Of a stretch of DNA of 64,000 nt, positions 4,979-27,085 are shown one piece after another; position 1 is the stretch's first letter; each line of letters begins with the position of its first letter. Where the stretch lies: positions 448,131 through 512,130 of the forward strand of contig QFDA01000001.1 in NCBI GenBank assembly GCA_003130815.1, written 5' to 3'. This DNA comes from Bacteroidetes bacterium SCGC AAA795-G10 (GTDB taxonomy: Bacteria > Bacteroidota > Bacteroidia > Flavobacteriales > Flavobacteriaceae). Both the position numbers and the translations under genes were made by a program. The notes under the pieces were generated by a model, which worked only from the letters and a program-made list of their open reading frames with translations, was not told where the DNA came from and did not search any database.

Positions 4979-4982
4979 AATA

Positions 4983-5735: not shown

Positions 5736-5740
5736 AAATT

Positions 5741-6517: not shown

Positions 6518-6542
6518 TTTGATTTGAAAAATTAAATTATAA

Positions 6543-7433: not shown

Positions 7434-8352
7434 CTTTTAAATTAGTTGAAAATAATATACCACCAAAATCTCCCCTGTTAGTCATTCTTTTAATTACATA
7501 ATTAATATAGTTTCTATGAGAATTATCTGCCATGAAAAGTAGCTTTTTTAATTTTAGAGTTCTGTCATTTTTGGACCTTTTGTTAAGAAGCGCAATTTCA
7601 ATTTTATCTTGATTTAGTTTTGAAATATTCAATGTACATCTTCCAAACATCCTTTTTTTTATATTTATATCGGGAGACAAATATTGATGAGTAACAGGAT
7701 TGTGCCCGACCTTCTCATGTGCTCCGTGATAAATAATATTAATTTTATTAAAACCTTTCTCAATGGCAATTTCAATAACTTCAAAAAGATTTATGATATT
7801 AAAGAAAACAAGCTGTCCTGCCTCATGTCTATACCTAGCAATTTTCAAATCGCTAATAGTCTTTCCTTTTAAACATGACACAAATTGGCAAGAAAATGAT
7901 TTATTCGTTACCTCTAAAAGTTTTGAAAAAACTTTTAAGGGTGTCTCCATGTGGTGAACAGCAATTCTTTCAAAAACATAGTCATATTTTTTTGTGAAAG
8001 TGTGCTTAGTTAAATCAGATTGAATCCAATTTGCTTCCTGAAATTTTTTTTTGCAAAAATCAATACCTTTTTTTGAAATATCCATTCCTGTATAATCTGA
8101 ATTTTTATCCAAGGTTTTATTATGATAAAGATACCTATACGCTCCTCCCATAGCAGACCCTATTTCTAAAATACTTCCATCAATTTTTTGATTTAAATTA
8201 TCAAATGTTTGTCTACCATTAAACAATGGATAGTCATGGAAATTCCAATTTGAAAATTCATATTTGTTATAGTTCTCTTCACTCCAAGTATCTGCCAACT
8301 TAGATCTATTATAAGATTCATTTATTAAGTTTTCGGAGTTTATGTTCTTCAT
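7417..8352 (-). CDS. Class I SAM-dependent methyltransferase
   Basis: A 311-residue methyltransferase with the Rossmann-type AdoMet motif I ILEIGSAMGG near residues 61-70, an acidic residue at the end of strand 2 (YTGMDISKKG), and the motif IV region YDYVFERIAVHHMETP. These show AdoMet binding. The acceptor is unknown. O- or N-methylation of a sugar is common in such loci. The next gene downstream overlaps its 3' end, indicating translational coupling. A 78-base AT-rich spacer upstream (8353-8430) carries nothing I can name. Confidence 0.85.
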   Translation of the reverse strand: MKNINSENLINESYNRSKLADTWSEENYNKYEFSNWNFHDYPLFNGRQTFDNLNQKIDGSILEIGSAMGGAYRYLYHNKTLDKNSDYTGMDISKKGIDFCKKKFQEANWIQSDLTKHTFTKKYDYVFERIAVHHMETPLKVFSKLLEVTNKSFSCQFVSCLKGKTISDLKIARYRHEAGQLVFFNIINLFEVIEIAIEKGFNKINIIYHGAHEKVGHNPVTHQYLSPDINIKKRMFGRCTLNISKLNQDKIEIALLNKRSKNDRTLKLKKLLFMADNSHRNYINYVIKRMTNRGDFGGILFSTNLKGENYA

Positions 8353-8430
8353 GATTTAGTTATTATTATTTATACTTATTTTTTTTTATTTTATATTGTG
8401 AGTTGTTTAAAATTTTATTTAAAAAAGGAG

Positions 8431-9216
8431 CTACTTAAAGTTGGCCATGGTCCCTTTCATTTGATCTGCCCATTTCCACAAAACAAACAAGTCAGAACCT
8501 AATATAATATAGGTATAGCCTAGTTCAAACATCTTTTTAATATTCTGTTTGTTAGGATCATTCAATTGTGTTCCACAACTTTTCCCAAACTTCTTGCAGG
8601 CATTAATAACTTTTTTAGATGCTTTTATAACTTTTGGATGGTCAAGTTTCCCTGGGACACCTAAAGATCCCGAAATATCATAAGGTCCAATCATTACCGC
8701 ATCAACTTCATCAAATTTTAACAAACTCTCAATGTTTTCTACAGCCTCAATTGTTTCTATTTGAAGAATTAATGATGAAGAATTATTCCAATCTGTGATG
8801 TAATTATTAAATTCAAATCCATATCCTTGAGCTCTATTTACTCCATAACTTCTTTTCCCAATAGGAGGGAATTTAAAATGATTTATTAATTTTTTAAGTT
8901 GATCAGGAGTGTTTACCATTTGAAATAACATGCCATCAGCACCAGATTCGAGTAAAGGTTTTATATAATTATTTGAATGTGATACGGGCCTTGGTAAGCA
9001 AGGGACATCATATGACTGGCTTGCAGAAATAATCCTTTGTGCTTCTGAAAGATTAATGGTTGAATGTTCCATATCAATTGCAATAAAATCAAAGCCGGCC
9101 ATAGCAAAGGTTTCAGTTATAGAGGGATGCGAATATGAAACCCATGCCGCAAATAAAACTTCTCTTTGTCTTAATGCTGTTTTTAATTTCAATCTAGTCT
9201 TATAAATATTTTTCAT
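8431..9216 (-). CDS. HpcH/HpaI-family pyruvate aldolase
   Basis: This 261-residue protein belongs to the HpcH/HpaI class II aldolase family (2-keto-3-deoxy-glucarate and 4-hydroxy-2-oxo-heptanedioate aldolases). These cleave or form a C-C bond between pyruvate and an aldehyde. Recognisable elements are AAWVSYSHPSITETFAMAG, the catalytic-base region AIDMEHST, the metal-binding Glu in LQIETIEA and the Asp in MIGPYDISGSLG. The length is typical. It follows a CBS protein and KdsA in the same operon, so it could make or remodel a 2-keto-3-deoxy sugar acid. Family members are more often catabolic, so its direction here is inference. Confidence 0.87.
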   Translation of the reverse strand: MKNIYKTRLKLKTALRQREVLFAAWVSYSHPSITETFAMAGFDFIAIDMEHSTINLSEAQRIISASQSYDVPCLPRPVSHSNNYIKPLLESGADGMLFQMVNTPDQLKKLINHFKFPPIGKRSYGVNRAQGYGFEFNNYITDWNNSSSLILQIETIEAVENIESLLKFDEVDAVMIGPYDISGSLGVPGKLDHPKVIKASKKVINACKKFGKSCGTQLNDPNKQNIKKMFELGYTYIILGSDLFVLWKWADQMKGTMANFK

Positions 9217-9220
9217 AAAA

Positions 9221-9613
9221 TTATTCCAAAAGTTTCTTTACTGCAGGGTGTAAATGAAGTAATCCTATTAATTTTTTTTCATTATCTAACACAGGTAAAT
9301 CCCATATTTGAATTCTACCCATTTTCTCAACAACATACTTTAAGTCATCATTAGATGAACATGTTACTGGATCACGTTTTGAGTGTATTAAAACATCGTC
9401 TACTAAAAAACTTGAAAATGGTTTCTGGACCTTTAATAATTTTCTTCTTAAATCTCCGTCAGTTATAATACCAATCAATTCTTTTTTATCATTAATAATG
9501 CAAACAAGACCCAAATTGGCCATATCCATTTCAGTTAGGGCTTCTTTAAGAATCATTTTTTTACTTACTACTGGGAAATCACCAAAAGGAATCATTACAT
9601 CATTTACTGTCAT
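9221..9613 (-). CDS. Stand-alone CBS-domain pair resembling the KdsD C-terminal half
   Basis: A 130-residue protein made of two CBS domains and nothing else. The order and wording closely track the C-terminal half of arabinose-5-phosphate isomerase KdsD: VNDVM at the start, ALTEMDMANLG, GIITDGDLRRKL, a second DDVL, and the ending LIGLLHLHPAVKKLL. KdsD normally has an N-terminal SIS isomerase domain, and it is missing here. The gene starts four bases after the KdsA gene, the enzyme that uses the KdsD product. CBS pairs bind adenine or CMP-type nucleotides, so a regulatory subunit sensing nucleotide or CMP-Kdo is plausible. An isomerase subunit would have to come from elsewhere. Confidence 0.85.
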   Translation of the reverse strand: MTVNDVMIPFGDFPVVSKKMILKEALTEMDMANLGLVCIINDKKELIGIITDGDLRRKLLKVQKPFSSFLVDDVLIHSKRDPVTCSSNDDLKYVVEKMGRIQIWDLPVLDNEKKLIGLLHLHPAVKKLLE

Positions 9614-9616
9614 AAC

Positions 9617-10501
9617 TTAAGGATTTGTAGGATGAACATTATCATCCCCTAATTTATTTAAAATTTCGATACGTATTTGATGAAGCTTTTTTGCTTGATA
9701 CAAAATATTTTCCAAGTATTTTAGGTCTAAAACTGTATTTGAATCAGATAAAGCCTTGGCAGGATTGTCATGAACTTCCATAAATAATAAATTTATGCCA
9801 TTAGCAACAGCAGATCTTACCAAATAGGGTATAAATTCTCTTTGTCCTCCTGATATGTTGCCCATAGATGTTGGAAGCTGAATTGAATGAGTTGCGTCAT
9901 AACAAACCGGATAACCTGTAGAAGCCATTATAGGAAAAGAGGTCATATCATTCACTAGCATATTGTAACCCATAAAAGTTCCTCTCTCAGTTAAAATAAT
10001 TTTTTCATTACCAAAAGATTCGAGTTTTCTACAAGAATTTTTCATATTCCAAGGGCTCATAAATTGCCCTTTTTTTAATAGAATCGGCTTGTTAGTTCTA
10101 GCAGCAGCCCTCAAAATTGAGGTTTGTCTACATAAATAAGCTGGCACTTGAACTAGATCACAAACCTCTCCCGTTAAATCAGCCCAAGAAGGATCAGAAA
10201 AGTCTGACACGACCGGAACTTTGTATAGGCGTCTAACTTCAGATAAAATTTCTAGTCCCTTTTCGATACCAACACCATGAAAACTTTTGGGGGATGACCT
10301 ACAATCCTTGTCATAACAAGATTTATAAATCCACTGAATTTTTAATTTGTCACAAATTTTTTTTATAGCCCCTGCCATAAATAAAGCATGGTCTCTATTT
10401 TCAATAGCACATGGCCCACCAACAAAAACAAGTGGATTTTGGCCTCCTATTTTTATTTTTTCAACATCTCCATATCCTACTTTAACTATTTTTTTATTCA
10501 T
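9617..10501 (-). CDS. kdsA: 3-deoxy-8-phosphooctulonate (Kdo-8-P) synthase
   Basis: A 294-residue KdsA homologue that condenses phosphoenolpyruvate with arabinose-5-phosphate. Family landmarks are YKSCYDKDCRSSPKSFHG, VVSDFSDPSWA, VQVPAYLCRQT, LLKKGQFMSPWNM and YDATHSIQLP. The motif GGPCAIEN has Cys at residue 31 where the E. coli enzyme has Asn, the mark of the metal-dependent class. The other expected metal ligands are present as His in DATHS, Glu in MEVHDNP and Asp in LSDSN. It groups with the CBS protein, aldolase and KdsB. No KdsC phosphatase or full KdsD is seen, so those steps must be encoded elsewhere. It could also make a related 3-deoxy sugar acid. Confidence 0.9.
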   Translation of the reverse strand: MNKKIVKVGYGDVEKIKIGGQNPLVFVGGPCAIENRDHALFMAGAIKKICDKLKIQWIYKSCYDKDCRSSPKSFHGVGIEKGLEILSEVRRLYKVPVVSDFSDPSWADLTGEVCDLVQVPAYLCRQTSILRAAARTNKPILLKKGQFMSPWNMKNSCRKLESFGNEKIILTERGTFMGYNMLVNDMTSFPIMASTGYPVCYDATHSIQLPTSMGNISGGQREFIPYLVRSAVANGINLLFMEVHDNPAKALSDSNTVLDLKYLENILYQAKKLHQIRIEILNKLGDDNVHPTNP

Positions 10502-13682: not shown

Positions 13683-15108
13683 TTCTAAAAATAATATTTG
13701 AAAGTGATTTCAGATATATATAAGTTCTAGTCAAAATTAAAATTGATATCACAGATAAGATTTTATAAGACAGTCTTAAAACGTAATTAATATTTGTCTC
13801 ATATAGTATAAACGAAACAAGTAATAATAATAGGACAAACAATAAATTTCTTAAAAATTTTAATGAGAAATCTATTTTTAGAAATTTTTGAGAATAATAA
13901 AAATTCAAATAAGAACTTATTATACCACTAAAAAAAGCTCCCCAAGCAGCTCCATAAAGTCCAAAGTTATAAATAACAGGTAGAGTTATAATAATATTTA
14001 TAACTAATGTTATCATAGACAGTTTACTAATTAAATAGCTTTTATTAGCAATTAAAAGTTGTTTAGTAGTACCAAAAAAATTGACTACATAAAACATTAC
14101 AAGAGGAATGATAATAGGATAAGCTTTATGAAAACCTTCAGTTGTTAATATTAATAGTAATTCCTCTGAAAACATGCCAATAGATAAACATATAAGAATA
14201 TAAAAGTTAAAATATGGATATAATAATTTGTTTGATCCTTTTTTAAAATCACAATATTTTTTTTTGTGATATAAATCGTATAGATCAGGGCCATACAAAT
14301 TTTGAAGTGAACTCAAAAAATTATTTGACGAATAAGAAATTTTTTGAGCAATATTTAGTAATCCTGTAACACCAAGAGAATTAAAATATCCTAGAAGATA
14401 CTTGTCAAACTGGGAACTTAAAGAGTTAAAAAAGACCCTCGGAGTTAAAGGGAGCCCAAAAATAAGAGCATTTTTAAGTAACAAAATATTAATTGAAAAT
14501 CCATTTTTTAAAATGTACAAGATGGATAAGAATATTAAAATTAAACTTACACCAGTCACTTGACCGGAAATGTAACCAGAGACACCTAATTTAAACTTTG
14601 AAACAAAAATAATTGAACATGTAGTTACAATTATTGTTTCTATCATTGAAATGAATGCAAATGTTGTTACCAACTTATTATTAATCATAAAAACATAAAA
14701 AAATTGGATTGAGTTTTTTAGCCCTGCAAATAGTAAGGCATAGAATAAAATTTTCCCTTCAAAATTTGTGTTAAAAAAAAGGTTTGTTATTGCATTATGA
14801 AAAAAAAATGTTATGCTCGAGAAAAAACCCAATATTAACATTGATAAAATTAAACAACTCCACATTAAGTTGATTTGATTAATTTTTTTTGTTAATTGAA
14901 AAAAATTTCTTTCAAAAGCTACAGTCAAACCTAAATTTGATAAACCTCCAAATAATATTCCATAAACACTAGCAAGAGCAAGAATTCCATAGTCTTCAGT
15001 AGAGAGAAATTTAGTAAAGATGGGCAAGCTCAAAATAGGCATTAAACTTGTTACAGCATATGGTAATTGAAGTATTAGAAATTTATTTATAAAGTTGTTC
15101 TTTTTCAC
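13672..15108 (-). CDS. Wzx-type polysaccharide flippase (MOP superfamily)
   Basis: A 478-residue polytopic membrane protein with about 12-14 hydrophobic segments across its whole length and few charged loops, the layout of Wzx/RfbX flippases. The start LQLPYAVTSLMPILSLPIFTKFLSTEDYGILALASV is the typical N-terminus of the family. It should move undecaprenyl-linked repeat units across the inner membrane. A flippase in this locus, with no ABC exporter visible, points to a Wzx/Wzy-type pathway. The polymerase is not obvious within the operon, so the ligase-like proteins at 30473-35135 are candidates. Confidence 0.88.
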   Translation of the reverse strand: MKKNNFINKFLILQLPYAVTSLMPILSLPIFTKFLSTEDYGILALASVYGILFGGLSNLGLTVAFERNFFQLTKKINQINLMWSCLILSMLILGFFSSITFFFHNAITNLFFNTNFEGKILFYALLFAGLKNSIQFFYVFMINNKLVTTFAFISMIETIIVTTCSIIFVSKFKLGVSGYISGQVTGVSLILIFLSILYILKNGFSINILLLKNALIFGLPLTPRVFFNSLSSQFDKYLLGYFNSLGVTGLLNIAQKISYSSNNFLSSLQNLYGPDLYDLYHKKKYCDFKKGSNKLLYPYFNFYILICLSIGMFSEELLLILTTEGFHKAYPIIIPLVMFYVVNFFGTTKQLLIANKSYLISKLSMITLVINIIITLPVIYNFGLYGAAWGAFFSGIISSYLNFYYSQKFLKIDFSLKFLRNLLFVLLLLLVSFILYETNINYVLRLSYKILSVISILILTRTYIYLKSLSNIIFRNGN

Positions 15109-15112
15109 TAAT

Positions 15113-16876
15113 TTACTTTAAGTTTCCATCAATTTTACTTAAATCAATATTTGAATTTTCTACTACTAATTCATTTATAATACTTGACCAATCCCCAATT
15201 TTTTTATCACCTTCTATAATTTTATTAAGTCCTATTTCAAGTGAAGGAAAAATAACTTCTGCTTTTTTATAAATTGAGTTGTGGCCATGAATATAGCCTT
15301 TTGAATTAATAAGTATTACTTTTTTATTTCTCAAAGCACATTCTAATGCAGCAGTAGCACCTATCAAATTTCCAATACAATAATCAGCATACTTTGAAAT
15401 TGACCAAGGGGTTATATCATTTCTATATTCTCCTCGACTTATTTCAAAAAATCTTTGTGTAGAAAAGGCCTGATTTATTGTTTGTGAATTATAATTCTTG
15501 ACAGTATTAAAAACAAATTGTGGCTTTAAAAGGATAGCTATATTTTCATTATTAATTACAGTTTTTGCTAATAATTCAATTTCATCTAATATTTCTTTTT
15601 GGCTAAAACACCCCCATTTATCTTTTTGAACAGATTCATCAAAATAAACTATTATCTTTTCAACTCCATTTTCTTTTAGTTTTTTCTTAATTGATTGAAA
15701 CTCTATTTTTGATTCGTTTTTGAAAATATAACCCAACGAATAAAAGTTTTTTGGCCCTATATTTTTCCAATGAAAAAGATTTTTAAATTTTTCTGAAAAA
15801 GAAAAAAATGTATCTGCTGATGTAATCATAAGCGGTACTCTTATTCCCATGTTTGTGTGTTGTATACACCTTGTTTCAACATTTATCATTTTAGATATTA
15901 ATTGAACGGCATCAGTAATTGGATCTTGTGCATCAATAAATAAGAATAGATCACATTTAATTCTCATTAAATAATTCTTTAAGCCACAAGCAAGTTTAAA
16001 AAAATCATTTAATTGGTGTTTTAAAACATATGGAATATTTTGTGAGTCAGAAAGTGTAAATCTTGAACAATTTAGACTAGAATAAATGTTATAAAAATTT
16101 TCTTCTAATGTTATTCCATTTTCAAATAATTTTTTTTTTGTAGTCTTAAGCTTTTGTCTACTTGTATTTATAATATGAAAATTTTTGAAAAGGCTTTTCT
16201 TAAACCAATTTGGAAAAGGGTTATCATTTTTATCTAATGAAATTGCATGCGATGCAACAAGAACTGTGGTTGGTTGATGCTTTTTTAAATTTACTTTGTT
16301 TTTAATTTTAAGGCCTAAAAAAAACTTTATTATTTTTTTTGTCCAAACATTTAATCTTTTAAATGAAATATTTTTTCTAAAATAAATTTCAAACTGGCTA
16401 TATTTTGATTTTAAAAATTCTTCTTTAATTGTATTACTTGATCTTAAGACTACTATAAAATTTTTTGAAACGTCCTCTTTATTTTTTATATAATTGAAGA
16501 TCTTTATATAATATTCCATTTCATCCCAAGCCCTCTTTGCAATAAATAACTTAACAACGTTAATTCCGTTTAGTTGATTTTCTCCACAATAATTTAAATT
16601 AAGTCCTTTCATCAAGATTTCTGAATACTTAAAGGCTTCTAATGAGGCTTCCCTTCTCGAACTCATATAAAGTGACTCCCCATGATTGTTTCTAATACTT
16701 CCGTAAAAAAAAGTAGGGCTGATCATACAAATTCCAATCAAATCTAAAATGGATAGAATTATTTTCCCCCTCCAGCTTAAATCATTAAGTATTATAAATT
16801 TTTCTACTGAAGGGTGTCTAAATAGAATTTTTAGTACTGAAAACAAATTTAGATCGTCTAAATAAGCCTTTGTCAT
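15113..16876 (-). CDS. Unassigned GT-B-like polysaccharide biosynthesis protein
   Basis: A 587-residue protein that I cannot place in a named family. The C-terminal half looks like a GT-B donor domain: TRCIQHTNMGIRVPLM near residue 335, a strand EKIIVYFDES near residue 405, then ISKYADYCIGNLIGATAALECALRNKKVILI near residue 515, similar in layout to capsule transferases. The N-terminal part has a short hydrophobic segment around residues 35-60 that may touch the membrane. No signal peptide is seen. It sits between the flippase gene and an asparagine-synthetase-like gene. A glycosyltransferase role is likely but the linkage is unknown. Confidence 0.6.
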   Translation of the reverse strand: MTKAYLDDLNLFSVLKILFRHPSVEKFIILNDLSWRGKIILSILDLIGICMISPTFFYGSIRNNHGESLYMSSRREASLEAFKYSEILMKGLNLNYCGENQLNGINVVKLFIAKRAWDEMEYYIKIFNYIKNKEDVSKNFIVVLRSSNTIKEEFLKSKYSQFEIYFRKNISFKRLNVWTKKIIKFFLGLKIKNKVNLKKHQPTTVLVASHAISLDKNDNPFPNWFKKSLFKNFHIINTSRQKLKTTKKKLFENGITLEENFYNIYSSLNCSRFTLSDSQNIPYVLKHQLNDFFKLACGLKNYLMRIKCDLFLFIDAQDPITDAVQLISKMINVETRCIQHTNMGIRVPLMITSADTFFSFSEKFKNLFHWKNIGPKNFYSLGYIFKNESKIEFQSIKKKLKENGVEKIIVYFDESVQKDKWGCFSQKEILDEIELLAKTVINNENIAILLKPQFVFNTVKNYNSQTINQAFSTQRFFEISRGEYRNDITPWSISKYADYCIGNLIGATAALECALRNKKVILINSKGYIHGHNSIYKKAEVIFPSLEIGLNKIIEGDKKIGDWSSIINELVVENSNIDLSKIDGNLK

Positions 16877-16894
16877 TTGACTAAGTATTTTTCA

Positions 16895-18799
16895 TCAATC
16901 GGGTTGACTAATAATCAAATAATTCCCTATGTTCAATATGTCTGTCATTTCTTGGCCATAAACATTCTCACCTTCACAATATTTTTTGACAATTCTTTCA
17001 ATGTAATTTAAATCAAAATATTCTGGACTAAATGAATCTAAATAGTTTTTTTGTTGGAAAGCGTCTTTAAATAATTTCTTAAATGAAGAGGCATTGACTA
17101 TCTCATCGGTATGGGAAAATGTTGGATTTATGTCATACAAATAAGAATGAGGGCCTGATTGATAATCAATCGGATAATCAATTTTATTAATTAACATCCA
17201 TTTTAAAGGGTACTTGGTATTATTTATATCTAGTCCCCTGCCCCAGCTTTCAGGCATTTGAGATAAAAAATCTATGACCCCTTTGTCTAGAAATGGAAGT
17301 CTGCATTTTAATCCAAAAGACTCGCATGTATGTTCAAGAGTTGCGACTGTTCCGCCTTGCCAATGAAAAGAATTATATAAATGTAGATAATGAGAATACA
17401 AATTGTCATATTCTATTTTATCCTTAAACATACTCAAATAAGTTTCTGATGCATTTATTAAGAACTTTTTTATACCACTTTCAGTTAAAAGTTGATTGTT
17501 AAACTTTGAATACAGTGGGATTCTACCACCGCTTAGAAAAAAAGATTCAAGTATTTGTAATTTTATTTCAACATCTCCTTTCTTAAGTTGATCAAATTTT
17601 GTTTTTGTATTATAGGACATAAAAATTTTCCAAACTGGATCATCTTCATATTTCCCTTCAATTAATTGTTTTAAAAATGTTGGTCCAAATAAGTATGTAG
17701 CCATTTTATCGCTATATTCTCTGAAGGCTATTGACTCAGGATGATATAAGGAAAAATATTGGCTAAATCCCAAATTATGGGCTCCATCACTAATTTCTCC
17801 TGCAAATACAACTGCCCCTTGCTTAGAAATTTTTGACGCTCCTTTTGCAAGTTGCCAATGATTATAACCTGTAAGGTTAAAAAACTCATGTGATCTAAAT
17901 AATGTTAAGACTTCATCCCTGATTTTATTTGCGTCTTTAGTATAGTCTAAATCAATTATGTGTAGTTTAACATTATAATAATCAGCAAATTTTTGAGCTC
18001 TATCTAATTCAAATTGATTAATTATTTTACTTCTTTTTGAATATCTCATCCTTCCAATAACACATTCAATTTTATCTGAACTGAATAAATGACACAAAGT
18101 AGCTAATATAGATGTAGAGTCCCATCCTGAGGATAACAAAACAATATTTTGGATTTCAGATGCCCTAGCCCTAACTGCTTCTATGAATAAATTTGAGTAA
18201 TCCTGTAATTTGGAATAATCATCTTTTTTGAATACAACTTTTGGAACAAATTGTATTTTATCAACCGAAAGTTTATTGTCATTTATTGTAAGCTTTTCAT
18301 TTATACCTAATCTGTTTAATTTTTTGTTTAGAGTATGTTTCTTAAGAGGTCTACTTCCATAAATTGATAATACTTGAGCCAATCCATTTTGATCAATAGA
18401 ACCTAAATCAACGTCGCGGGGAATCATTTCTTTTCCAGATGTTATGTAGTAAATTTCTTTTTCTAAAACCCAATATACATTTGCCCTTCCAAAATTATCA
18501 GTCCAAACTGAAATACAATTGTTTTTTGATATCTTGACAATTACAAATCTTCCTTCAAACTCTGGTATTTTTTTAAAATCTGCTAAATTTTTATAATTTT
18601 TTAATGAGGTATTAACTTTATTTTTATCTCTTCCTCCAAGCAAATCTCCTAACAATATACATACACTCCCATCTTTATCTTCCCATTCTAAATTTGCACA
18701 ATCACCTTCAATTTTTATTAAATCGTTATTGAATATAATTGGGTGTTTATCAGATATATATTTGTTTTTGCTATTTGATATTGTAATTCTGTAGTTCAT
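16895..18799 (-). CDS. Asparagine-synthetase-like amidotransferase lacking the N-terminal Cys
   Basis: A 634-residue homologue of class II asparagine synthetases. The C-terminal ATP pyrophosphatase domain starts with LLSSGWDSTS (residues 221-230), a variant of the SGGxDS PP-loop, followed by further family features such as FAGEISDGAHNLGFS and RLPFLDKGVIDFL. The N-terminal glutaminase domain is diverged. It begins MNYRITISN, so the nucleophile Cys2 is absent, although GRFVIVKISK and TDNFGRANVYW recall the fold. It should therefore activate a carboxylate with ATP but not hydrolyse glutamine, as in beta-lactam synthetase-type relatives. Beside the nonulosonic acid cassette, amidation of a uronic or ulosonic acid using free ammonia or another amine is possible. 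Confidence 0.8.
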   Translation of the reverse strand: MNYRITISNSKNKYISDKHPIIFNNDLIKIEGDCANLEWEDKDGSVCILLGDLLGGRDKNKVNTSLKNYKNLADFKKIPEFEGRFVIVKISKNNCISVWTDNFGRANVYWVLEKEIYYITSGKEMIPRDVDLGSIDQNGLAQVLSIYGSRPLKKHTLNKKLNRLGINEKLTINDNKLSVDKIQFVPKVVFKKDDYSKLQDYSNLFIEAVRARASEIQNIVLLSSGWDSTSILATLCHLFSSDKIECVIGRMRYSKRSKIINQFELDRAQKFADYYNVKLHIIDLDYTKDANKIRDEVLTLFRSHEFFNLTGYNHWQLAKGASKISKQGAVVFAGEISDGAHNLGFSQYFSLYHPESIAFREYSDKMATYLFGPTFLKQLIEGKYEDDPVWKIFMSYNTKTKFDQLKKGDVEIKLQILESFFLSGGRIPLYSKFNNQLLTESGIKKFLINASETYLSMFKDKIEYDNLYSHYLHLYNSFHWQGGTVATLEHTCESFGLKCRLPFLDKGVIDFLSQMPESWGRGLDINNTKYPLKWMLINKIDYPIDYQSGPHSYLYDINPTFSHTDEIVNASSFKKLFKDAFQQKNYLDSFSPEYFDLNYIERIVKKYCEGENVYGQEMTDILNIGNYLIISQPD

Positions 18800-18806
18800 G
18801 ATTTTT

Positions 18807-19847
18807 TTATTTATTTAATTTATCTAAAGACATTCTTGTTCCTCTTAAATAATCGTTTTTAAAAGTACATCCCAAGATATCTTGTAAATATTTTGGATGA
18901 AGCCCATAACCAGGGCGGATTGATCTTACATTTTCATTAGTAATTAATTCTCCCTTTTTTACATTTTTTGTGATGTATAAAGATCTCGAAAAATTTCTTC
19001 CCTTTTTCTGTTTACTAGTTAACTCATAGTTAATTTCACCAACACATACCTCTGCTTCTCTAATTGATTTAACCATTTCACTGAATCCATTTTTATCCAA
19101 TGAAAAGCTTGCATCTGGCCCCCCTATAGATTTATCTAGAATAAAATGTTTTTCAATAATTTTAGCCCCCAGATTAACAGCAACTATTGGGGCTGTAATA
19201 CCGAGCGTGTGATCTGAAAGACCAGTTACAACTCCATATCTTTTTTTAAGATCTGAAATCATGATCAAATTAGCTTCGTTAATAGGTGCAGGATAACTTG
19301 AAGTGCATTTTAGTAATGCTAAATTACTATTACCTACTTCTTTACATGTTGAAAGTGCCAAATCAATATCATTCATTGTTGCTATACCGGTTGAAATAAT
19401 CGTTGGCTTTCCTTTAGATGCTATGTATTGAATTAATGGTGTGTCGGTAATTTCAAATGATGCAATTTTGTATATTGGATTATCTAAATCTTCTAAAAAA
19501 TCGACTGCAGTTTTATCAAAAGGTGATGAAAAGCATAATAAACCTTCTTCATTTGCTACTCTAAACAATTCTTCATGCCATTCCCACGGAGTAAATGCAC
19601 TTTCATATAATTTGTAATAACTCTGTCCATCCCAAATTGAATTATTTTTTATTACAAAATCATTTCTTTCTGAATCTATGGTAATTGTATCAGGTCTATA
19701 TGTTTGAAGCTTTACAGCATCCGCACCTGCTTTTTTTGCAGCACATATTGTTTTTATCGCAGTTGACAAAGAACCATTATGATTAGCTGATAGCTCAGCG
19801 ACAATTAAAACTTTCTCTAATTGATTAAAATTTAAAAAATTAATCAT
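18807..19847 (-). CDS. pseI: Pseudaminic acid synthase-type NeuB protein
   Basis: A 346-residue NeuB-family synthase that condenses phosphoenolpyruvate with a 6-carbon amino sugar to give a nonulosonic acid. VAELSANHNGS near residue 17-26 is the family opening. IIEKHFILDKSIGGPDASFSL near residues 225-245 has the GGPDASFSL wording typical of PseI rather than sialic acid or legionaminic acid synthases. A C-terminal SAF (antifreeze-like) domain covers about 285-346. A second NeuB-type protein is encoded at 22644-23648, so two such acids, or two steps, are implied. The gene overlaps the small 62-residue protein gene by eight bases. Confidence 0.86.
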   Translation of the reverse strand: MINFLNFNQLEKVLIVAELSANHNGSLSTAIKTICAAKKAGADAVKLQTYRPDTITIDSERNDFVIKNNSIWDGQSYYKLYESAFTPWEWHEELFRVANEEGLLCFSSPFDKTAVDFLEDLDNPIYKIASFEITDTPLIQYIASKGKPTIISTGIATMNDIDLALSTCKEVGNSNLALLKCTSSYPAPINEANLIMISDLKKRYGVVTGLSDHTLGITAPIVAVNLGAKIIEKHFILDKSIGGPDASFSLDKNGFSEMVKSIREAEVCVGEINYELTSKQKKGRNFSRSLYITKNVKKGELITNENVRSIRPGYGLHPKYLQDILGCTFKNDYLRGTRMSLDKLNK

Positions 19848-20028
19848 TGTTCTCTGAAAGTTTCTTTAAAAGGTCTCCTATTTTTTTATCATCCTTATTG
19901 ATTTTTTTAACAATATCCCTCGCTTCAGATGGAGCATGCTTAAATGCTAACCTCAAGATATTCATCCAATTTATATTATTTTTTGTTCTAACTTTTTCTA
20001 TAGCATCTATGATCTCAAAATCTGTCAT
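19840..20028 (-). CDS. Small unknown protein between formyltransferase and PseI
   Basis: A 62-residue protein from the ATG at 20028, four bases after the formyltransferase stop. An upstream in-frame start at 20064 would overlap that gene by 32 bases. The product is a charged, helical chain MTDFEIIDAIEKVRTKNNIN followed by WMNILRLAF, an Ala/Pro break, and a Lys-rich amphipathic C-terminus ending KKLSEND-like. There is no signal peptide or membrane segment. Conservation of spacing and overlap with PseI shows it is translated. I recognise no domain. It may be a scaffold or regulator of neighbouring enzymes, which is a guess. Confidence 0.75.
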   Translation of the reverse strand: MTDFEIIDAIEKVRTKNNINWMNILRLAFKHAPSEARDIVKKINKDDKKIGDLLKKLSENND

Positions 20029-20032
20029 TTTT

Positions 20033-20566
20033 TTATATTTTATTAATTTCAATGTTCCAGTCAATATTTTTTGGCAAATCTTTTTCTTTATGAAATGACC
20101 CCGTCCCAGTTTGTGGTTTGGGAACTATCTTATTTGTAATAATTTTATTAAAAGAATTGTAAAATAAATCCTCAATTGTTTTTTTTAATTTCATGTAGCT
20201 TGATAATAAAGTATCTGTTTCCGTAAATACTTGTTTTTTCTGAACTAAAATTGGCCCTGTATCAATCCCTTCATCCATAAAATGAATTGTAACTCCTTTA
20301 GGTGTCTTTTCTTTAAAACTCCAATAATTAGGGTGAGCCCCTCTATTAAATGGTAAATAAGAAATGTGCAAATTTATAATAGGGTTTTTTAAATTATCTA
20401 TATGATTTTTTGAAATTATATGCCTGTACCCATAGGATACAATCCAATCAAACTTTTGATAGTTTAAATATTCAAGTTTTTTATTATGAAAGTATGTCTC
20501 TCCATATTTAGATAAGAATGAGAACATTTTTTTATTTTGTTTTTCACCCAAATAAAGGATATTCAC
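20033..20566 (-). CDS. Sugar N-formyltransferase-like protein
   Basis: A compact 177-residue member of the methionyl-tRNA formyltransferase fold family that uses N10-formyl-tetrahydrofolate. The catalytic trio is visible: N65 and H67 in INLHISYLP, and D102 in EGIDTGPI, with GVTIHFMDEG just before. The length covers only the Rossmann-type N-terminal domain, as in short sugar formyltransferases, and has no tRNA-binding C-terminal domain. It should formylate an amino group of a nonulosonic acid or precursor, consistent with neighbouring aminotransferases. It lies two bases downstream of the class III aminotransferase gene. Confidence 0.85.
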   Translation of the reverse strand: MNILYLGEKQNKKMFSFLSKYGETYFHNKKLEYLNYQKFDWIVSYGYRHIISKNHIDNLKNPIINLHISYLPFNRGAHPNYWSFKEKTPKGVTIHFMDEGIDTGPILVQKKQVFTETDTLLSSYMKLKKTIEDLFYNSFNKIITNKIVPKPQTGTGSFHKEKDLPKNIDWNIEINKI

Positions 20567-20567
20567 T

Positions 20568-21875
20568 TTAATTTAATCTTTGAAAACCATTATGTGCAAT
20601 TTTACTATCTAGAAGATTGTCAATATTTAACTCTCCAACAATACATTTTTTTATATTAAAAAAAATTTCGTCTAAAACTTCTGAGTAATTGTCTATAACT
20701 TTATGAGTATGTGCTGTAGATGCATAAAAACTCGTCGTTGCCAAATAACCCTTTTTCAAAAATTCTTGTATTAAATATGTTTTAAATTTTTGAGCATCTT
20801 TATTTTCAAAACTAAATGAACTGATGGATGGTAAGCCACTTATCTTAATATTCACTTCATATTTTTTTGAAGAAAATTTCCATTTTTCTTGCATGTAATT
20901 ACCTAAGGCAGTAATTATTTCCCAAGACTTTTCTCTTTCCATTATCTCTAAGGTTTTTAGGGCAGCTGTTGGACCTATCCTTTCAGTCCAAAAAGTGCTG
21001 CTTATAAATGTTTTTTGAGCTGCTTCCATAACACTTCTTTTTCCAACAACAGCAGTTATAGCATATCCATTACCTAGAGCTTTTCCGTACATAGCTATAT
21101 CAGGCTCAACATTAAACTTTTGATGAATACCTCCAAATGTTTCTCTAAATCCTGAGGTACATTCATCAAAAATTAAAACAATCCCTTTTTTTGTCGCTAA
21201 TTGTCTGACATCATCCAAAAATCTATCCTTAGGTTCGATATTTCTGACTACTTCCATTTTTATAATACCAATTTTGTGCTCTTCAATTATTTTTTTCAGG
21301 TAATCTATATCATTATAATTGAATGGAAAAACAGTATTTTCAAGACCTTTAGGAACACCTGCAGGATTCAATCCTGATAAAAGATGATTTGAAAGATCAT
21401 TTCCATTATTATGATTTGCAGAAAGATACCAATCATGCCATCCATGATAACCACATATTGCAATTTTATCATTACCCGAAGCTGCCCTAGCAATTCTTAT
21501 AGCAACAGAATTAGCCTCTCCGCCAGTTCTAGCAAATCTAACCATGTCTGCCCATGGATTAATTTCAATCAATCTCTCAGCTAATAAAACTTCCTCTGGG
21601 CAATTTAATGTACTCATATTACCTAGTTTTAAAATTTCATTAACTGCGTTATCTACCTCATTATTCCTATACCCAAGAGCATTTGTACCCACACTCATTG
21701 TAGAACAATCAAAATATTTTACCCCATCTAAATCCCAGACTTCACATCCAATAGCCTTATTAAAGTATGACGGCCATAAATCTGGTAAAAACATTTCAGG
21801 TCTTTTAGATAAAAGCATTGTTCCTCCAGGTATTAATTTTTTTGCTTTATTGTATAAGTTTTGTCCTTTAAACAT
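20568..21875 (-). CDS. Class III (GSA-like) PLP aminotransferase
   Basis: A 435-residue aminotransferase of the glutamate-1-semialdehyde aminomutase/class III group. FDECTSGFRETFGG holds the Asp that contacts the pyridoxal ring, MYGKALGNGYAITAVVG the Schiff-base Lys (about residue 268), and FARTGGEANSVAIRIARA the phosphate-binding region. Although it resembles HemL, its place in a sugar operon between a CMP-sugar synthetase and a formyltransferase argues for amination of a sugar carbonyl rather than haem synthesis. Such GSA-like enzymes recur in nonulosonic acid loci. The exact sugar is unknown. Confidence 0.87.
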   Translation of the reverse strand: MFKGQNLYNKAKKLIPGGTMLLSKRPEMFLPDLWPSYFNKAIGCEVWDLDGVKYFDCSTMSVGTNALGYRNNEVDNAVNEILKLGNMSTLNCPEEVLLAERLIEINPWADMVRFARTGGEANSVAIRIARAASGNDKIAICGYHGWHDWYLSANHNNGNDLSNHLLSGLNPAGVPKGLENTVFPFNYNDIDYLKKIIEEHKIGIIKMEVVRNIEPKDRFLDDVRQLATKKGIVLIFDECTSGFRETFGGIHQKFNVEPDIAMYGKALGNGYAITAVVGKRSVMEAAQKTFISSTFWTERIGPTAALKTLEIMEREKSWEIITALGNYMQEKWKFSSKKYEVNIKISGLPSISSFSFENKDAQKFKTYLIQEFLKKGYLATTSFYASTAHTHKVIDNYSEVLDEIFFNIKKCIVGELNIDNLLDSKIAHNGFQRLN

Positions 21876-21889
21876 TTTATCAAAATAAT

Positions 21890-22642
21890 TTATTTGTACA
21901 TACTTTCATAGCCTTTTAAAGTAAATGGGTAAACCAATTCTTTTAGGCTTTTATTTTCATCTAAAAAACCTATTACATCTTCTAGAATTATGTTAGGGGC
22001 TTGGTGACAAAATTCCTTATAGATCTTTCTACAAACAACAAGATCTTCCGGATTATCAACAGTCAATCTAAGATCTTTGCGATTTAATCGCTTTGGGGCC
22101 ATAATTTTTTTTACTTTAAATGAGTGATAGTTTTCCCTTATAAATAATGTGCACATTTCCGAACGATGTCTGCTATTACCTTTTTTGTGTGATAGTTCTA
22201 AAGCATTTAATTTGATAAATTCAAATCCACACCCATCAATTATTTCATCATAAAAAGTTGCATCATTATCATCATTACAATGTGTTACCCATGATTTTTC
22301 TACTGCCTTGTAATATAAAAAGGGAGATTCACTAGTTACTCTAAAAACATCAGTACCTTCTACCTCCTTACATGCGAGAATAAGCCTAGATAAAACATCT
22401 ATCTCATCTCCAGTTATGTATTTAATTCTTTTCTCTTTTGCTATTTTTTTAAAAATGTCATTTTCCTTACCCTCACTAATAGCTAAAACAATTGAATTAA
22501 TTGATTTGATTGTCTTCAAACAATCGATTATATTATCAATTACTCTAATTCCTTTGTCTATATCCAAGTTCTGGATAGGTTTCCCAAACAAACGTGAACC
22601 TTGATTTCTGCATGCTAATACAGCTACTAATTTTCTACTCAT
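21890..22642 (-). CDS. CMP-sugar cytidylyltransferase (SpsF/PseF-like)
   Basis: A 250-residue nucleotidyltransferase of the acylneuraminate cytidylyltransferase/SpsF group. The first strand LVAVLACRNQGSRLFGKPI is the CTP-binding N-terminus. ITGDEIDVLSRLILAC and VFRVTSESPFLYY correspond to the nucleotide and sugar regions, and RLTVDNPEDLVVCRKIY is an SpsF-type hallmark. It should activate a nonulosonic acid made by one of the two NeuB-type neighbours as a CMP-sugar. It is followed by the class III aminotransferase gene after 14 bases. Alternative names are PseF or NeuA, and only the family level is secure. Confidence 0.82.
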   Translation of the reverse strand: MSRKLVAVLACRNQGSRLFGKPIQNLDIDKGIRVIDNIIDCLKTIKSINSIVLAISEGKENDIFKKIAKEKRIKYITGDEIDVLSRLILACKEVEGTDVFRVTSESPFLYYKAVEKSWVTHCNDDNDATFYDEIIDGCGFEFIKLNALELSHKKGNSRHRSEMCTLFIRENYHSFKVKKIMAPKRLNRKDLRLTVDNPEDLVVCRKIYKEFCHQAPNIILEDVIGFLDENKSLKELVYPFTLKGYESMYK

Positions 22643-22643
22643 A

Positions 22644-23648
22644 TTAACTAAAATGATCTTTTAATATGGGTTGATTACATTTTAATTTTTTTTTGACAAT
22701 TTTACCTAAAACCAAATCAAGTTTTTTAATTGATTTAATGTTGGATGTTCTTTTAAGTGTAATATTTTGGAAAGTTAACATTTCACCTGGTGAAATGTCT
22801 TTTGATGCAACTATGTCTCTTCTAATATTTTCCCTATATTTTTTTTCTGAATCACTCATCTTAAAATCATTTTCTTTATTAATTATCCCTAAAGCCTTTT
22901 GACCCAAATTCACTTCATTTACGAAACATGAAAACTCATCTGGGTTTAATGCAGATTCAAAATCCTCTAATTCCATTATTCTTCCCAATGTTATATGTTT
23001 TTCGATTGTTTTTGCACCTGCTCCAATAGCAACTAGTGATACAATAGATGATAATTTTTCGTCTACAGCATGGTCCGCAAATCCCATCTCGAAATTTAAT
23101 CGCAATTTTGAAGCCATTTCCCTAATAGCTTCTATTCTAAAGACTTGATTGTCCAGAATTTCTGTGGGATATCCTTGAAAGCCGCACATTAAAACTAAAG
23201 CCTTTGATTTAAGAATTTTCAAAGCTTTTTCAATTTCCATCCAATAAGCACCACCTACACCCAATATGACTTTTTTGATTGAAGAATTTGCAATTGATTC
23301 TAATAAGCTAATATTTGTGATATCGGTCCCATGAACTTTAATAGTATTTAATCCTGCTTTTTCAGCAGTACAAAGACTCTTAGCTCCAAATACATCTACA
23401 ATAAAATCTAATCCAAGTGAAATTGCATAATCATTTAATTGTTTCCACTTACCTTCCTCCATTTCTAAGTTTTTGAAAAGATTATAATATTTATAATCTT
23501 TAGTCGCAAGTTCATCAGCGTAAACAAGTTGAAATTTCACTGCATTTGAACTTGATTTGGATGCTGCTTTTATTAATAATTTTGATTGGTTAAATTTTCC
23601 TTCAAAACCTTGAGCAACCTCTGCTATTATGTATACATTATTTTTCAT
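22644..23648 (-). CDS. Second NeuB-family nonulosonic acid synthase
   Basis: A 334-residue NeuB-family protein from the ATG at 23648, which overlaps the upstream TAA as TAATG. The longer frame begins with TTG and is less likely. The TIM-barrel opening reads IIAEVAQGFEGKFNQ, and TIEKHITLGR holds the conserved Lys-His. The GGPD-type segment of PseI is replaced by RIMELEDFESALNPDEF. A SAF domain (VASKDISPGEMLTFQNI) ends the protein. It differs clearly from the PseI-like protein at 18807-19847, so it probably uses a different amino sugar or aldehyde. Confidence 0.85.
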   Translation of the reverse strand: MKNNVYIIAEVAQGFEGKFNQSKLLIKAASKSSSNAVKFQLVYADELATKDYKYYNLFKNLEMEEGKWKQLNDYAISLGLDFIVDVFGAKSLCTAEKAGLNTIKVHGTDITNISLLESIANSSIKKVILGVGGAYWMEIEKALKILKSKALVLMCGFQGYPTEILDNQVFRIEAIREMASKLRLNFEMGFADHAVDEKLSSIVSLVAIGAGAKTIEKHITLGRIMELEDFESALNPDEFSCFVNEVNLGQKALGIINKENDFKMSDSEKKYRENIRRDIVASKDISPGEMLTFQNITLKRTSNIKSIKKLDLVLGKIVKKKLKCNQPILKDHFS

Positions 23649-24490
23649 TACCAATTAACAGGATTTAGAATAAAAATATCTTTTATTTTAATCTTTCTAA
23701 TATCTTCAAAAACCTTTAATGGCAGATTAGACGAATATGAATTCAAAATTGAACATAATTGTTCTTGTGTTTCAACTCCAATAATTATCCGGTCTATGGC
23801 CTTATTCATTTTTACAAAACCTAAAGCCAAATCAAGAATAGAAAAACCATATTTTGCCTTAATTAGATCTAACTCCTTAAAAGCTGCCCTTAAACTTTTA
23901 AACTTTTCGCCTAATTCAGAAATTTTTTTAAAATAAAGGCCTTGTAGAAAAATTGATCTTACATGAATTTCAATTTTCTTTTCCTTTAAAAAATTTAAAT
24001 AAGACTCAAACTTTCTATCTAATAAACTGTAAGGAATTTGAACAATATCAGGGATCATTTTTTTATTAATAAGAATTTCTAGCTCATTAGGTTCATAGAC
24101 TGAGTAACCAATTTTTTTTGTCATTCCACTAAGTTTTAACATTTTCATATCTTCCCATAAATAGTTATTATTCAATAAAATTTCCGGTTTATGGAAAAGA
24201 TATCCGTAAATGTTAGAACTTTTTAACCTCTTCAAAGATCTTAACAGTGATGTTTTAAGACTATCTCCATTAAGTTCTCCAACTTTTGTAACTATTTTTC
24301 TCTTATTAGAATAATTGTCTCCTAATCTTAATTCAGAATTGCCATATATAGATGATGTATCAAAAACCGAAATATCATTTTGATCTGCTTTTGAAAGAAT
24401 TAATCTTAATTCTTTGTCTGATGGTATACCGTTTATGTTTGAAATACCATAATCTAGTCCCCATTGAACTGTACCTAATGCAATTCTCAT
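23648..24490 (-). CDS. Aldo/keto reductase family protein
   Basis: A 280-residue aldo/keto reductase (NADPH-dependent TIM barrel). ALGTVQWGLDYG begins the barrel, and FDTSSIYGNSE carries the catalytic Asp and Tyr. The Lys is in KIVTKVGEL and the His in YGYLFHKPE, completing the tetrad in order. Members of this group recur beside NeuB/SpsF genes in nonulosonic acid loci. It overlaps the acetyltransferase gene by four bases at its start and shares a TAATG junction with the NeuB gene, so translation is coupled. Substrate not known. Confidence 0.87.
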   Translation of the reverse strand: MRIALGTVQWGLDYGISNINGIPSDKELRLILSKADQNDISVFDTSSIYGNSELRLGDNYSNKRKIVTKVGELNGDSLKTSLLRSLKRLKSSNIYGYLFHKPEILLNNNYLWEDMKMLKLSGMTKKIGYSVYEPNELEILINKKMIPDIVQIPYSLLDRKFESYLNFLKEKKIEIHVRSIFLQGLYFKKISELGEKFKSLRAAFKELDLIKAKYGFSILDLALGFVKMNKAIDRIIIGVETQEQLCSILNSYSSNLPLKVFEDIRKIKIKDIFILNPVNW

Positions 24491-25041
24491 GTTAAATTAT
24501 TATTAAAAATCGCCATCCTAATTATATCCTCAAAATTCCCCCTATGAAAAATATGTTTTTTAAATTTCCCCTCAACTGAAAACCCCAATGACTTATAAAG
24601 ATTTATTGCATTTTTATTTTTTACCATAACTCCTAAGTTGATTTTACGTAAATAAAGTTTTTCAAAACAAAATTTTATGACAAGCCTTGAAGCTTCAGAA
24701 GCAAATCCCTTACCTTGAAAATTTCTGTCCCCTAGCATTATCCCGTACTCTCCAAACCTATTTTTGTTATCTACAGGATCAATTTTTATATTTCCTATGT
24801 GAGTATTGCTTTTTTTAGAAACTATTGCCCAGAAATATTGTGGTTCATTTTCAACTTTTTCTAAATAATTTTTAAGCTTTTCTAATGTGTAATCTCCACC
24901 GCTGTTCATAAACTTAATTACATCAAAATCATTCATCCAATTGACATAATCTTTTGATATAAATGCCTTATTAAGAGGCTTTAAAATTATTCTTCTAGAC
25001 TCTAATATTGGAATATAAAGTCCTTTTTGAGGTTTATCCAT
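24487..25041 (-). CDS. GNAT acetyltransferase (RimJ/RimL type, PseH-like position)
   Basis: A 184-residue GNAT N-acetyltransferase. The acetyl-CoA loop is visible as RNFQGKGFASEASR (Q/RxxGxG/A pattern) near residue 110, and VMVKNKNAINLYKSLGF is the standard helix after strand 5. In pseudaminic acid synthesis PseH N-acetylates the amino group installed by PseC. The PseC-like gene lies directly upstream with a one-base overlap, so this is a good PseH candidate. Sequence alone does not separate PseH from other sugar GNATs. Confidence 0.85.
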   Translation of the reverse strand: MDKPQKGLYIPILESRRIILKPLNKAFISKDYVNWMNDFDVIKFMNSGGDYTLEKLKNYLEKVENEPQYFWAIVSKKSNTHIGNIKIDPVDNKNRFGEYGIMLGDRNFQGKGFASEASRLVIKFCFEKLYLRKINLGVMVKNKNAINLYKSLGFSVEGKFKKHIFHRGNFEDIIRMAIFNNNLT

Positions 25042-26213
25042 TAAAAAAGATTTTGAAATCCTTCAGGTTTAATTATGGTATTGAACACAAATCTCTGTTC
25101 TTCATTTTTAAGGCCAGGATAAATAGGTATGCTGATAGCTTCAGAGTAATATTTCTCAGAGTTAAAAAATTCATTATAATCGAAATTAAATTTCTTATAA
25201 AACGGTTGTCTGTAAATTGGAATATAATGAATATTTACTCCTACTCCGTTATCTTTAAGTTTTTTAAATATTTCATTTCTTGAAAATTTATTTCCCTTAT
25301 TCGGTATTCTGATTATGTATAGGTGGAATGAAGAATAGTTATGTTTTAATACTTTTGGTGTAATTACATCAACATTTTTAAACAATTCATCATAATACTT
25401 TGCAATTTCATTTCGTTTTTTGACAAATTGGTTTATTTTTTTTAACTGGCTTATTCCTAATGCACTCATCAGATCATTTAGCCTAAAATTAAATCCTAGA
25501 TCTAATTGTTCATAATACCATGACCCGTCTGGTTTCTTAGTCATTTCCTTTTCATGACGTGTAACACCATGGCTCCTGTATCTACATAATTTATTGTAAA
25601 TTTCATGTGAATTTGTTGTACAAATTCCACCCTCACAAGTAGTTATGATTTTTACAGGATGGAAACTAAAAACAGTAATATCACTGTATTTACAGCTTCC
25701 CACTTTCTGATCATGATATTTTGCACCAATGGCATGAGATGCATCTTCAATTATAAAAAAACCATACTTTTTTGAAAGTTTAAAAATCTCTTTCATATCA
25801 GAACTTTGACCTGAAAGGTGAACAGGTATTAATACTTTTGGTAATCTCCCGATCTTTTCAGCTTGACGAAGTTTTTCCTCTAATTTAATTGGAGATATAT
25901 TGTACGATTCTAAATCAATATCCACAAAATCAATATTTGCATCACAATGTAAAGCACAATTAGATGAAGCAACAAACGAAATTGGTGAGGTCCAAACCCA
26001 GTCTCCTTTTTTTACCCCAAGAGCAAGACATGATATGTGGAGGGCACTACTTGCAGAATTAACAGCGCAAGAATATTTTGATCCACAATAGTTTGAAATT
26101 GCTATTTCGAATTCAGGAGTAACAGGACCTTGTGTCAAAAAATCAGAATTAAGAACTTCTACAACAGCTTTAATGTCTGACTTATCTATATTTTGTTTAC
26201 CGTATGGTATCAT
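25041..26213 (-). CDS. pseC: PseC-type DegT/DnrJ/EryC1 aminotransferase
   Basis: A 390-residue sugar aminotransferase of the DegT/DnrJ/EryC1/StrS family. IPYGKQNIDKSDIKAVVEVL and LTQGPVTPEFE are PseC-like openings, and the PLP Lys lies in FSFHPVKIITTCEGG near residue 189. LDLGFNFRLNDLMSALG and the C-terminal ISIPIYPGL complete the family pattern. It should aminate the 4-keto carbon of a UDP-4-keto-6-deoxy amino sugar. The PseB dehydratase that makes this substrate is not encoded in the window. The gene overlaps the RmlD-like gene by four bases. Confidence 0.88.
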   Translation of the reverse strand: MIPYGKQNIDKSDIKAVVEVLNSDFLTQGPVTPEFEIAISNYCGSKYSCAVNSASSALHISCLALGVKKGDWVWTSPISFVASSNCALHCDANIDFVDIDLESYNISPIKLEEKLRQAEKIGRLPKVLIPVHLSGQSSDMKEIFKLSKKYGFFIIEDASHAIGAKYHDQKVGSCKYSDITVFSFHPVKIITTCEGGICTTNSHEIYNKLCRYRSHGVTRHEKEMTKKPDGSWYYEQLDLGFNFRLNDLMSALGISQLKKINQFVKKRNEIAKYYDELFKNVDVITPKVLKHNYSSFHLYIIRIPNKGNKFSRNEIFKKLKDNGVGVNIHYIPIYRQPFYKKFNFDYNEFFNSEKYYSEAISIPIYPGLKNEEQRFVFNTIIKPEGFQNLF

Positions 26214-27085
26214 CTATTAATTTTTAAATAGCTTATTTGTTTTTCTATTGGCATTATTTTAATCCCTGTAGTTTTAACTACTTTCTTGTTTGATAAACTC
26301 ATATCCAAAGGCCTTTTTACAAGGTCTTTTCTTCTAACTAATTTGTCTCTTATTATCAAATTCTTTGCAAATTTAAAATTCTTTGCAATCATTATTCCAA
26401 AATCATATTTTGAAATTCTCTCGTTACTTGATACATTAAAAATTCCAGAACTATTACCCTCTATCAATTTCAATACTACTTTTGAAAGTTCGTTTATTAT
26501 GATAGGCGTGTAGTAAACATCCGAAAAAAGCTTTATTCTTCTGCCATCTTTTAATGATTTTATAATTGTATCTGAAAATGAATTTTTATAATCTGGGCCA
26601 TTACCAAAAAAATTTGTCCTTATAACTAATGATTTAGGGTTTGCATTTAAAACAGAAACTTCACCTTTTTCTTTGGTAGATGCATAAATATTTAAAGGAT
26701 TAGTAACATGGTTTTCTTCGTATAAAAATTTTTCCCCATCAAACAAATGATCTGTAGAAATATGAACAAAGGATATATTAAGTTGATTACTTACTCTAGC
26801 TATCTGACTTGGTAAAAAAGTATTAAGCTCATATGCCATAATTTTGTTTTTTTCACATTCCTCTACTGAAGTTAACCCTGAACAATTGATAATAGTATCA
26901 ATTTTTCTAGATATTAAAATTTCCTTGAGTCTTTTTGAATTATTACTAATTCTAAGAGAATGTGTGCCCGTTCCTTCAACCCATTTTTTATTTAATCCTA
27001 AATATATTTTATATCTACTTTTTAACTCATTTACCCACATGAAGGATAAAAGACTTGCACCTCCATAAAAAAGAATATTTTTCAT
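26210..27085 (-). CDS. RmlD-like NDP-sugar reductase
   Basis: A 291-residue extended SDR related to dTDP-4-dehydrorhamnose reductase. A short Gly-rich loop FYGGAS lies at the N-terminus. The catalytic residues are S110-T111 (VHISTDHLFDG) and Y134-x3-K138 (IYASTKEK), and INCSGLTSVEECE is the usual RmlD segment. It should reduce an NDP-4-keto sugar. No RmlA/B/C genes are nearby, so dTDP-rhamnose is not supported, and a UDP- or CMP-linked keto sugar is equally possible. It starts four bases inside the end of the UDP-sugar dehydrogenase gene. Confidence 0.85.
   Translation of the reverse strand: MKNILFYGGASLLSFMWVNELKSRYKIYLGLNKKWVEGTGTHSLRISNNSKRLKEILISRKIDTIINCSGLTSVEECEKNKIMAYELNTFLPSQIARVSNQLNISFVHISTDHLFDGEKFLYEENHVTNPLNIYASTKEKGEVSVLNANPKSLVIRTNFFGNGPDYKNSFSDTIIKSLKDGRRIKLFSDVYYTPIIINELSKVVLKLIEGNSSGIFNVSSNERISKYDFGIMIAKNFKFAKNLIIRDKLVRRKDLVKRPLDMSLSNKKVVKTTGIKIMPIEKQISYLKINR

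Follow-up and report, generated by a model that had tools for sequence, protein, structure and literature searches.

A pseudaminic acid-type gene cassette with a divergent NeuB-fold protein and a putative amination module in a flavobacterial polysaccharide locus

The window analysed here is a stretch of 64,000 nucleotides from Bacteroidetes bacterium SCGC AAA795-G10 (Flavobacteriaceae), lying on a contig of 1.06 Mb. A nonulosonic acid cassette occupies 18807-26213 on the minus strand, where most of the genes overlap or abut, and all of the genes named in the original prediction were found there. Two ORFs were missing from that list, a 62-aa ORF at about 19842-20027 and an RmlD-like gene at 26210-27085, which extends the cassette to 18807-27085. 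In the direction of transcription, all on the minus strand, it comprises an RmlD-like SDR (291 aa, 26210-27085; RmlD 153 bits, cut-off 224), the PseC aminotransferase (390 aa, 25041-26213; TIGR03588 526 bits, cut-off 424), a PseH-like N-acetyltransferase of the GNAT type (184 aa, 24487-25041; PseH 62 bits, cut-off 93) and an aldo/keto reductase, AKR (280 aa, 23648-24490; Aldo_ket_red 92 bits). These are followed by NeuB2, a divergent NeuB-fold enzyme with a SAF domain (22644-23654; 336 aa, counted from the TTG start given in the ORF list; Pfam NeuB 125 bits), CTPt-N, an SpsF-like cytidylyltransferase of a NeuB2-linked clade (250 aa, 21890-22642; CTP_transf_3 34 bits), AT3, a class III PLP aminotransferase of the GSA-aminomutase type (435 aa, 20568-21875; Aminotran_3 127 bits), and a short sugar N-formyltransferase-like protein (177 aa, 20033-20566; Formyl_trans_N 72 bits). 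The 62-aa ORF (19842-20027), which matches no Pfam family above cut-off and was seen only in this organism and at locus L012, separates the formyltransferase from the pseudaminic acid synthase PseI (346 aa, 18807-19847; TIGR03586 493 bits, cut-off 340). Profile searches thus confirmed the Aminotran_3, Aldo_ket_red, GNAT and Formyl_trans_N assignments, and equivalog cut-offs were reached by PseI and PseC and by none of NeuB2, the cytidylyltransferase and the formyltransferase.

The cassette is part of a large polysaccharide locus that also carries Kdo genes, genes for sugar nucleotides and one for a flippase-like membrane protein. A search of the host genome (1.93 Mb, a MAG 88.7% complete) gave no flagellin gene, so the destination of the sugar is probably a surface polysaccharide. 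Elsewhere in the window, Kdo-type genes (KdsB-like and a KdsA-like DAHP_synth_1 protein) share positions 4202-10501 with an HpcH/HpaI aldolase, a CBS-domain protein that stands alone and two short-chain dehydrogenases, and no SIS-domain arabinose-5-phosphate isomerase was seen beside the Kdo-type genes. PseI is followed, at 15113-18799, by an asparagine-synthase-like protein and by a 587-aa protein that is uncharacterised; relatives of the former also follow PseI in L016 and L030, and relatives of the latter in L016. A second genome, G806 (locus L012), from a nearly identical organism, holds a copy of the cassette that is 97-99% identical. Comparison with this copy gives pN/pS values of 0.04-0.21 for most cassette genes, showing purifying selection, and a value of 0.47 for NeuB2 that derives from 17 differences only. 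Synteny across about 20 loci excludes a chance grouping of the genes.

The absence of PseB and PseG from the window, noted in the original prediction, was borne out by a search of the genome with the family models. For PseB (TIGR03589), the best match reached 320 bits, under the cut-off of 408, and scored higher as FnlA (507). It sits 0.9 kb beyond the window edge beside WecB-like and RmlD-like genes, an arrangement which we take to be that of UDP-L-FucNAc synthesis. This FnlA-like gene was rejected as the missing PseB because of its better FnlA score and its WecB-like and RmlD-like neighbours. The PseB result in G806 was similar, with the best match under the cut-off and better as FnlA. PseG (TIGR03590) had no match in the host genome (G000, 88.7% complete) or in G806, nor in the other cassette-bearing Bacteroidota and Pelagibacter genomes examined; the genomes with a PseI-type synthase yet without a PseG match are G000, G806, G404, G405 and G408. 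Aeromonas subgroups ID and IE likewise lack PseG (PMC7874193). Nor did any other clear UDP-sugar hydrolase turn up, and a metallophosphoesterase, present in L026, L030, L083 and L085, fails as a PseG substitute here since there is none in the cassette. PseF (TIGR03584) also had no match in the host genome at E<=1e-5, and the SpsF-like CTPt-N is present instead.

NeuB2 is rare, occurring in 2/395 genomes of the phylum, but widely distributed: 19 loci come from Bacteroidota, Pseudomonadota, Desulfobulbaceae, Nitrospirae, Chloroflexi and Omnitrophota, and 21 loci from several phyla supplied the NeuB2 proteins whose residues are compared below. In most loci the order AKR-NeuB2-CTPt-AT3 is accompanied by PseB, PseC and PseI, often with RmlD and PseG, and related loci repeatedly have an RmlD-like gene placed between PseB and PseC. 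All 19 NeuB2 loci of sufficient extent have a PseI/SpsE-type partner. Neither viral contigs nor phage records yielded a close NeuB2, CTPt or AKR, and plasmid records yielded distant NeuB only. A recurring block near PseI, with genes for methyltransferase, SDR, ATP-grasp and metallophosphatase proteins, was observed at L011 (1727-5111), and similarly in L020, L026 and L029, across several phyla.

AT3 copies with 63-69% identity occur in 10 further genera of this family (11/397 genomes, including the window's own), where the typical order is PseB-PseC-GNAT-AKR-CTPt-AT3-PseI with no NeuB2. AKR-CTPt-AT3 therefore recurs with PseC and PseI both with and without NeuB2, and is a core tailoring module of Pse clusters in which NeuB2 is an optional insert. 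The enzymes originally singled out as extra to the pathway are thus better described as this AKR, cytidylyltransferase and aminotransferase module. The reverse case is seen in L029, where NeuB2 and CTPt-N are present and AKR and AT3 absent, indicating that the NeuB2/CTPt-N and AKR/AT3 modules are separable. Both enzymes of the latter keep their catalytic residues: the PLP lysine and the aspartate are retained in 33/33 AT3 proteins, and the Asp-Tyr-Lys-His tetrad in 28-29 of 29 AKR proteins. Direct fusions of CTPt and AT3 occur in L028 (10402-13152) and in L043 (8992-11025, on a Pseudosulfitobacter plasmid), one with NeuB2 nearby and one without. In a related architecture, EpaA, a fusion of CTP_transf_3 and AKR domains, acts with EpaB to convert Pse into 8-epi-Pse, as shown by NMR (PMC12053666), and a similar CTP_transf_3-AKR fusion is located in a Vibrio Pse cluster where NeuA would be expected (PMC7371886). 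By analogy, the AKR/cytidylyltransferase/AT3 module probably adds a third amine, and since an aminotransferase stands in place of the EpaB short-chain dehydrogenase, the most likely position of this amine is C8. The marine bacterium Flexibacter maritimus is known to contain an 8-amino-3,5,7,8,9-pentadeoxy nonulosonic acid, and Pseudoalteromonas distincta to contain 7-formamido-Pse (PMC3210612). The genes for the F. maritimus 8-amino acid were not found in the open-licence literature.

Addition of an amine by AT3 would lead one to expect a second N-acyltransferase, and one is present in most of the inspected AT3 loci. Either a GNAT with a formyltransferase or two GNATs were found in the window and in L017, L022, L023, L026, L030, L043, L078, L079 and L081-L086, as counted, unblinded, with local models and inspection. 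Formyltransferases occur in the AT3 loci L017, L019 (fused), L022, L023, L078, L081 and L082. The fused case, at 13692-15956 in the Desulfobulbaceae NeuB2 locus L019, is a triple fusion of PseG, GNAT and formyltransferase. No clear second N-acyltransferase was recognised by the local models in L018 and some other loci; an ATP-grasp protein could fill that role in L011 and L020. In the control Pse clusters L088-L090, AKR and AT3 are missing and the GNAT is fused to PseG, the control being imperfect in that L090 carries an extra GNAT-like ORF. The N-formylated variant originally predicted is plausible in view of the N-formyltransferases and second GNATs that recur in AT3 loci, with formyltransferases in such clusters of other phyla as well.

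The claim that the cassette encodes two unlike NeuB proteins was upheld. One is PseI, which groups with C. jejuni PseI, and the other falls in a separate deep clade. In a tree of 61 proteins, built by a quick method and containing some long branches, the NeuB2 clade sits on a fully supported long branch, separate from PseI, NnaB and SpsE. Against the synthase equivalogs (NeuB/NnaB and PseI), NeuB2 scores 164 and 128 bits, under the respective cut-offs of 400 and 340. Its predicted structure (AF2, pLDDT 90) is a TIM barrel with a SAF domain, and the top structural matches are NeuB and PseI (Z 30-33). The PEP side of the pocket is changed throughout the clade, with T110D, N184Q and G131H each in 21/21 members, and with its serines rarely kept (Ser132 in 2/21, Ser154 in 4/21 and Ser213 in 1/21, position 213 being Ala or Met in 20/21). 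Residues 110, 129, 131, 132, 182 and 184 surround PEP according to one paper (PMC7371886), whose numbering at residue 132 is possibly one off from that used here, and the ligand contacts given in another include 110, 184 and 213 (PMC6795526). In contrast, Lys53, Lys129, Arg314 and the metal histidines His215 and His236 are each retained in 21/21, along with Gln55, Glu234, Asp247 and, with one gap, Glu25. The label of "second synthase" is therefore not secure for NeuB2, given that the PEP-side residues are altered and the metal, lysine and sugar-side residues kept. The pattern suggests, short of proof, that the donor or the reaction of NeuB2 has changed, although the retained residues mean that it may still take PEP in a different pose. 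No description of NeuB2 or of the cassette was found in the open-licence literature.

The cytidylyltransferase is more closely tied to NeuB2 than was first thought. A single SpsF-like enzyme is present, as predicted, but to call it shared between two synthases understates the link, because its clade is seen only beside NeuB2: 20/20 cytidylyltransferases adjoining NeuB2 fall in a single clade with full support, and 19 other cytidylyltransferases lie outside it, among them the second copy in L014, which pairs with PseI. Members of the NeuB2-linked clade lack the REH motif, and in their DCP motif the Asp is replaced by Glu in 17/17 cases, compared with Asp in 16/16 of the others. The host genome yielded no second CMP-nonulosonate synthetase; KdsB is the only CTP_transf_3 match among those listed by the genome search, for whose first look CTPt-N itself is too divergent. 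It is quite possible, if somewhat short of probable, that NeuB2 and CTPt-N form a co-inherited pair whose activity is so far undescribed, in which a NeuB-fold enzyme with unusual PEP use would modify a nonulosonic acid or join it to another donor, and CTPt-N would be adapted to the product.

Taken together, we tentatively propose, as close to an even call, that the cassette makes one CMP-activated nonulosonic acid of the pseudaminic type, that this acid bears an additional amino group and is destined for a surface polysaccharide, and that NeuB2 is neofunctionalised. In the step order envisaged, the diamino hexose would be formed by a dehydratase that inverts C5 (probably encoded here by the FnlA-like gene beside the window), by PseC and by the GNAT, and PseI would extend it by three carbons from PEP. 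AKR would then oxidise a side-chain hydroxyl, most likely at C8, AT3 would convert the ketone into an amine, the formyltransferase would N-formylate one amine (on C8 or C7), and CTPt-N would yield the CMP-sugar. NeuB2 would be a neofunctionalised NeuB acting with CTPt-N on this same acid rather than an ordinary PEP-dependent synthase.

The original prediction also allowed for two acids. On such a reading, PseI would make a pseudaminic acid, NeuB2 would use PEP and a different hexose (supplied for example via the RmlD-like reductase) to make a second nonulosonic acid, and CTPt-N would activate both or the second only. The complete NeuB fold of NeuB2 with its SAF domain, the retained metal histidine pair, both lysines and Arg314, the recurrent RmlD-like gene in the PseB/PseC interval and the PseI/SpsE-type partner in every locus reaching far enough are all consistent with a second synthase. 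However, the remodelling of the PEP side in every member of the clade makes a second acid doubtful, and the host genome offered neither a second CMP-nonulosonate synthetase nor a PseG or other hydrolase to release a second hexose, so that this reading appears unlikely, if still a serious one. The kept residues bear also on whether NeuB2 could be a non-catalytic partner, forming a heterodimer in which it exchanges SAF domains with PseI and adjusts PseI specificity. NeuB dimers place Arg314 in the active site of the other subunit (PMC6795526), and Arg314 is invariant in NeuB2; but the metal and lysine residues of the barrel are just as conserved, and the new pocket residues are equally invariant, which suggests catalysis and renders a purely structural role very improbable.

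A different doubt concerns where the module acts. AKR, AT3 and the formyltransferase might serve to make or transfer an unusual N-acyl group, or might work at C4 of the acid or on the hexose ahead of PseI, instead of at C8 of the finished acid. Genes for ATP-grasp, methyltransferase and nitrilase proteins near AT3 in several loci could make acyl groups, and in L082 the formyltransferase occupies the position of the GNAT between PseC and AKR. On the other hand, the CTPt-AT3 fusions and the EpaA-type CTPt-AKR fusions link these enzymes to the CMP-activation step, and a marine flavobacterium already provides an example of an 8-amino acid. A role away from C8 is accordingly judged rather unlikely, and amination at C8 of a single pseudaminic-type acid is retained as the preferred reading.

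The cassette offers candidate genes for 8-amino nonulosonic acids, which are known in marine bacterial polysaccharides, and because several phyla share the operon order, the idea could be tested in a cultured host. It also carries a caution for annotation, since a clade annotated as "N-acetylneuraminate synthase family" has a rebuilt PEP pocket, and predictions of products from the number of NeuB genes could mislead there.

Comparison with known systems places the cassette near several of them. It shares with the Pse5Ac7Ac pathway (PseB-C-H-G-I-F) PseC and PseI over curated cut-offs, a PseH-like GNAT and a cytidylyltransferase, but differs in that the genome has no PseB over cut-off, PseG or PseF, and in the additional AKR, AT3, formyltransferase and NeuB2. 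Similarly, the prophage-encoded EpaA and EpaB of Acinetobacter, which act on Pse, combine an SpsF-type CTP_transf_3 enzyme with an aldo/keto reductase. In the cassette, however, these are separate genes, two apart, and a class III aminotransferase replaces the EpaB short-chain dehydrogenase; no EpaB-type dehydrogenase is found in the cassette, and two adh_short_C2 proteins lie at 4983-6517. The Shewanella sfmABCDE genes were considered as a similar cluster and rejected, as their gene content differs. Compared with the NeuB, PseI and SpsE synthases, NeuB2 has the same fold, SAF domain, metal histidines, Lys53, Lys129 and Arg314, but its clade has Asp110, Gln184 and His131, and has mostly lost the serines at 132, 154 and 213. 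The group I flagellin glycosylation islands of Aeromonas (PMC7874193) have the order pseB-pseC-AKR-pseF-class III aminotransferase-(pseG)-pseI, and in the cassette AKR, the cytidylyltransferase and AT3 likewise all lie between PseC and PseI. NeuB2 and the formyltransferase are not reported from those islands, which serve flagellin, whereas no flagellin was found in the host genome. Finally, the O-antigen acid of Flexibacter (Tenacibaculum) maritimus, whose N-acyl groups are acetyl and 3-hydroxybutyryl, is of the type predicted here as the product: a Pse-like acid with a third amine, from a marine member of the Bacteroidota.
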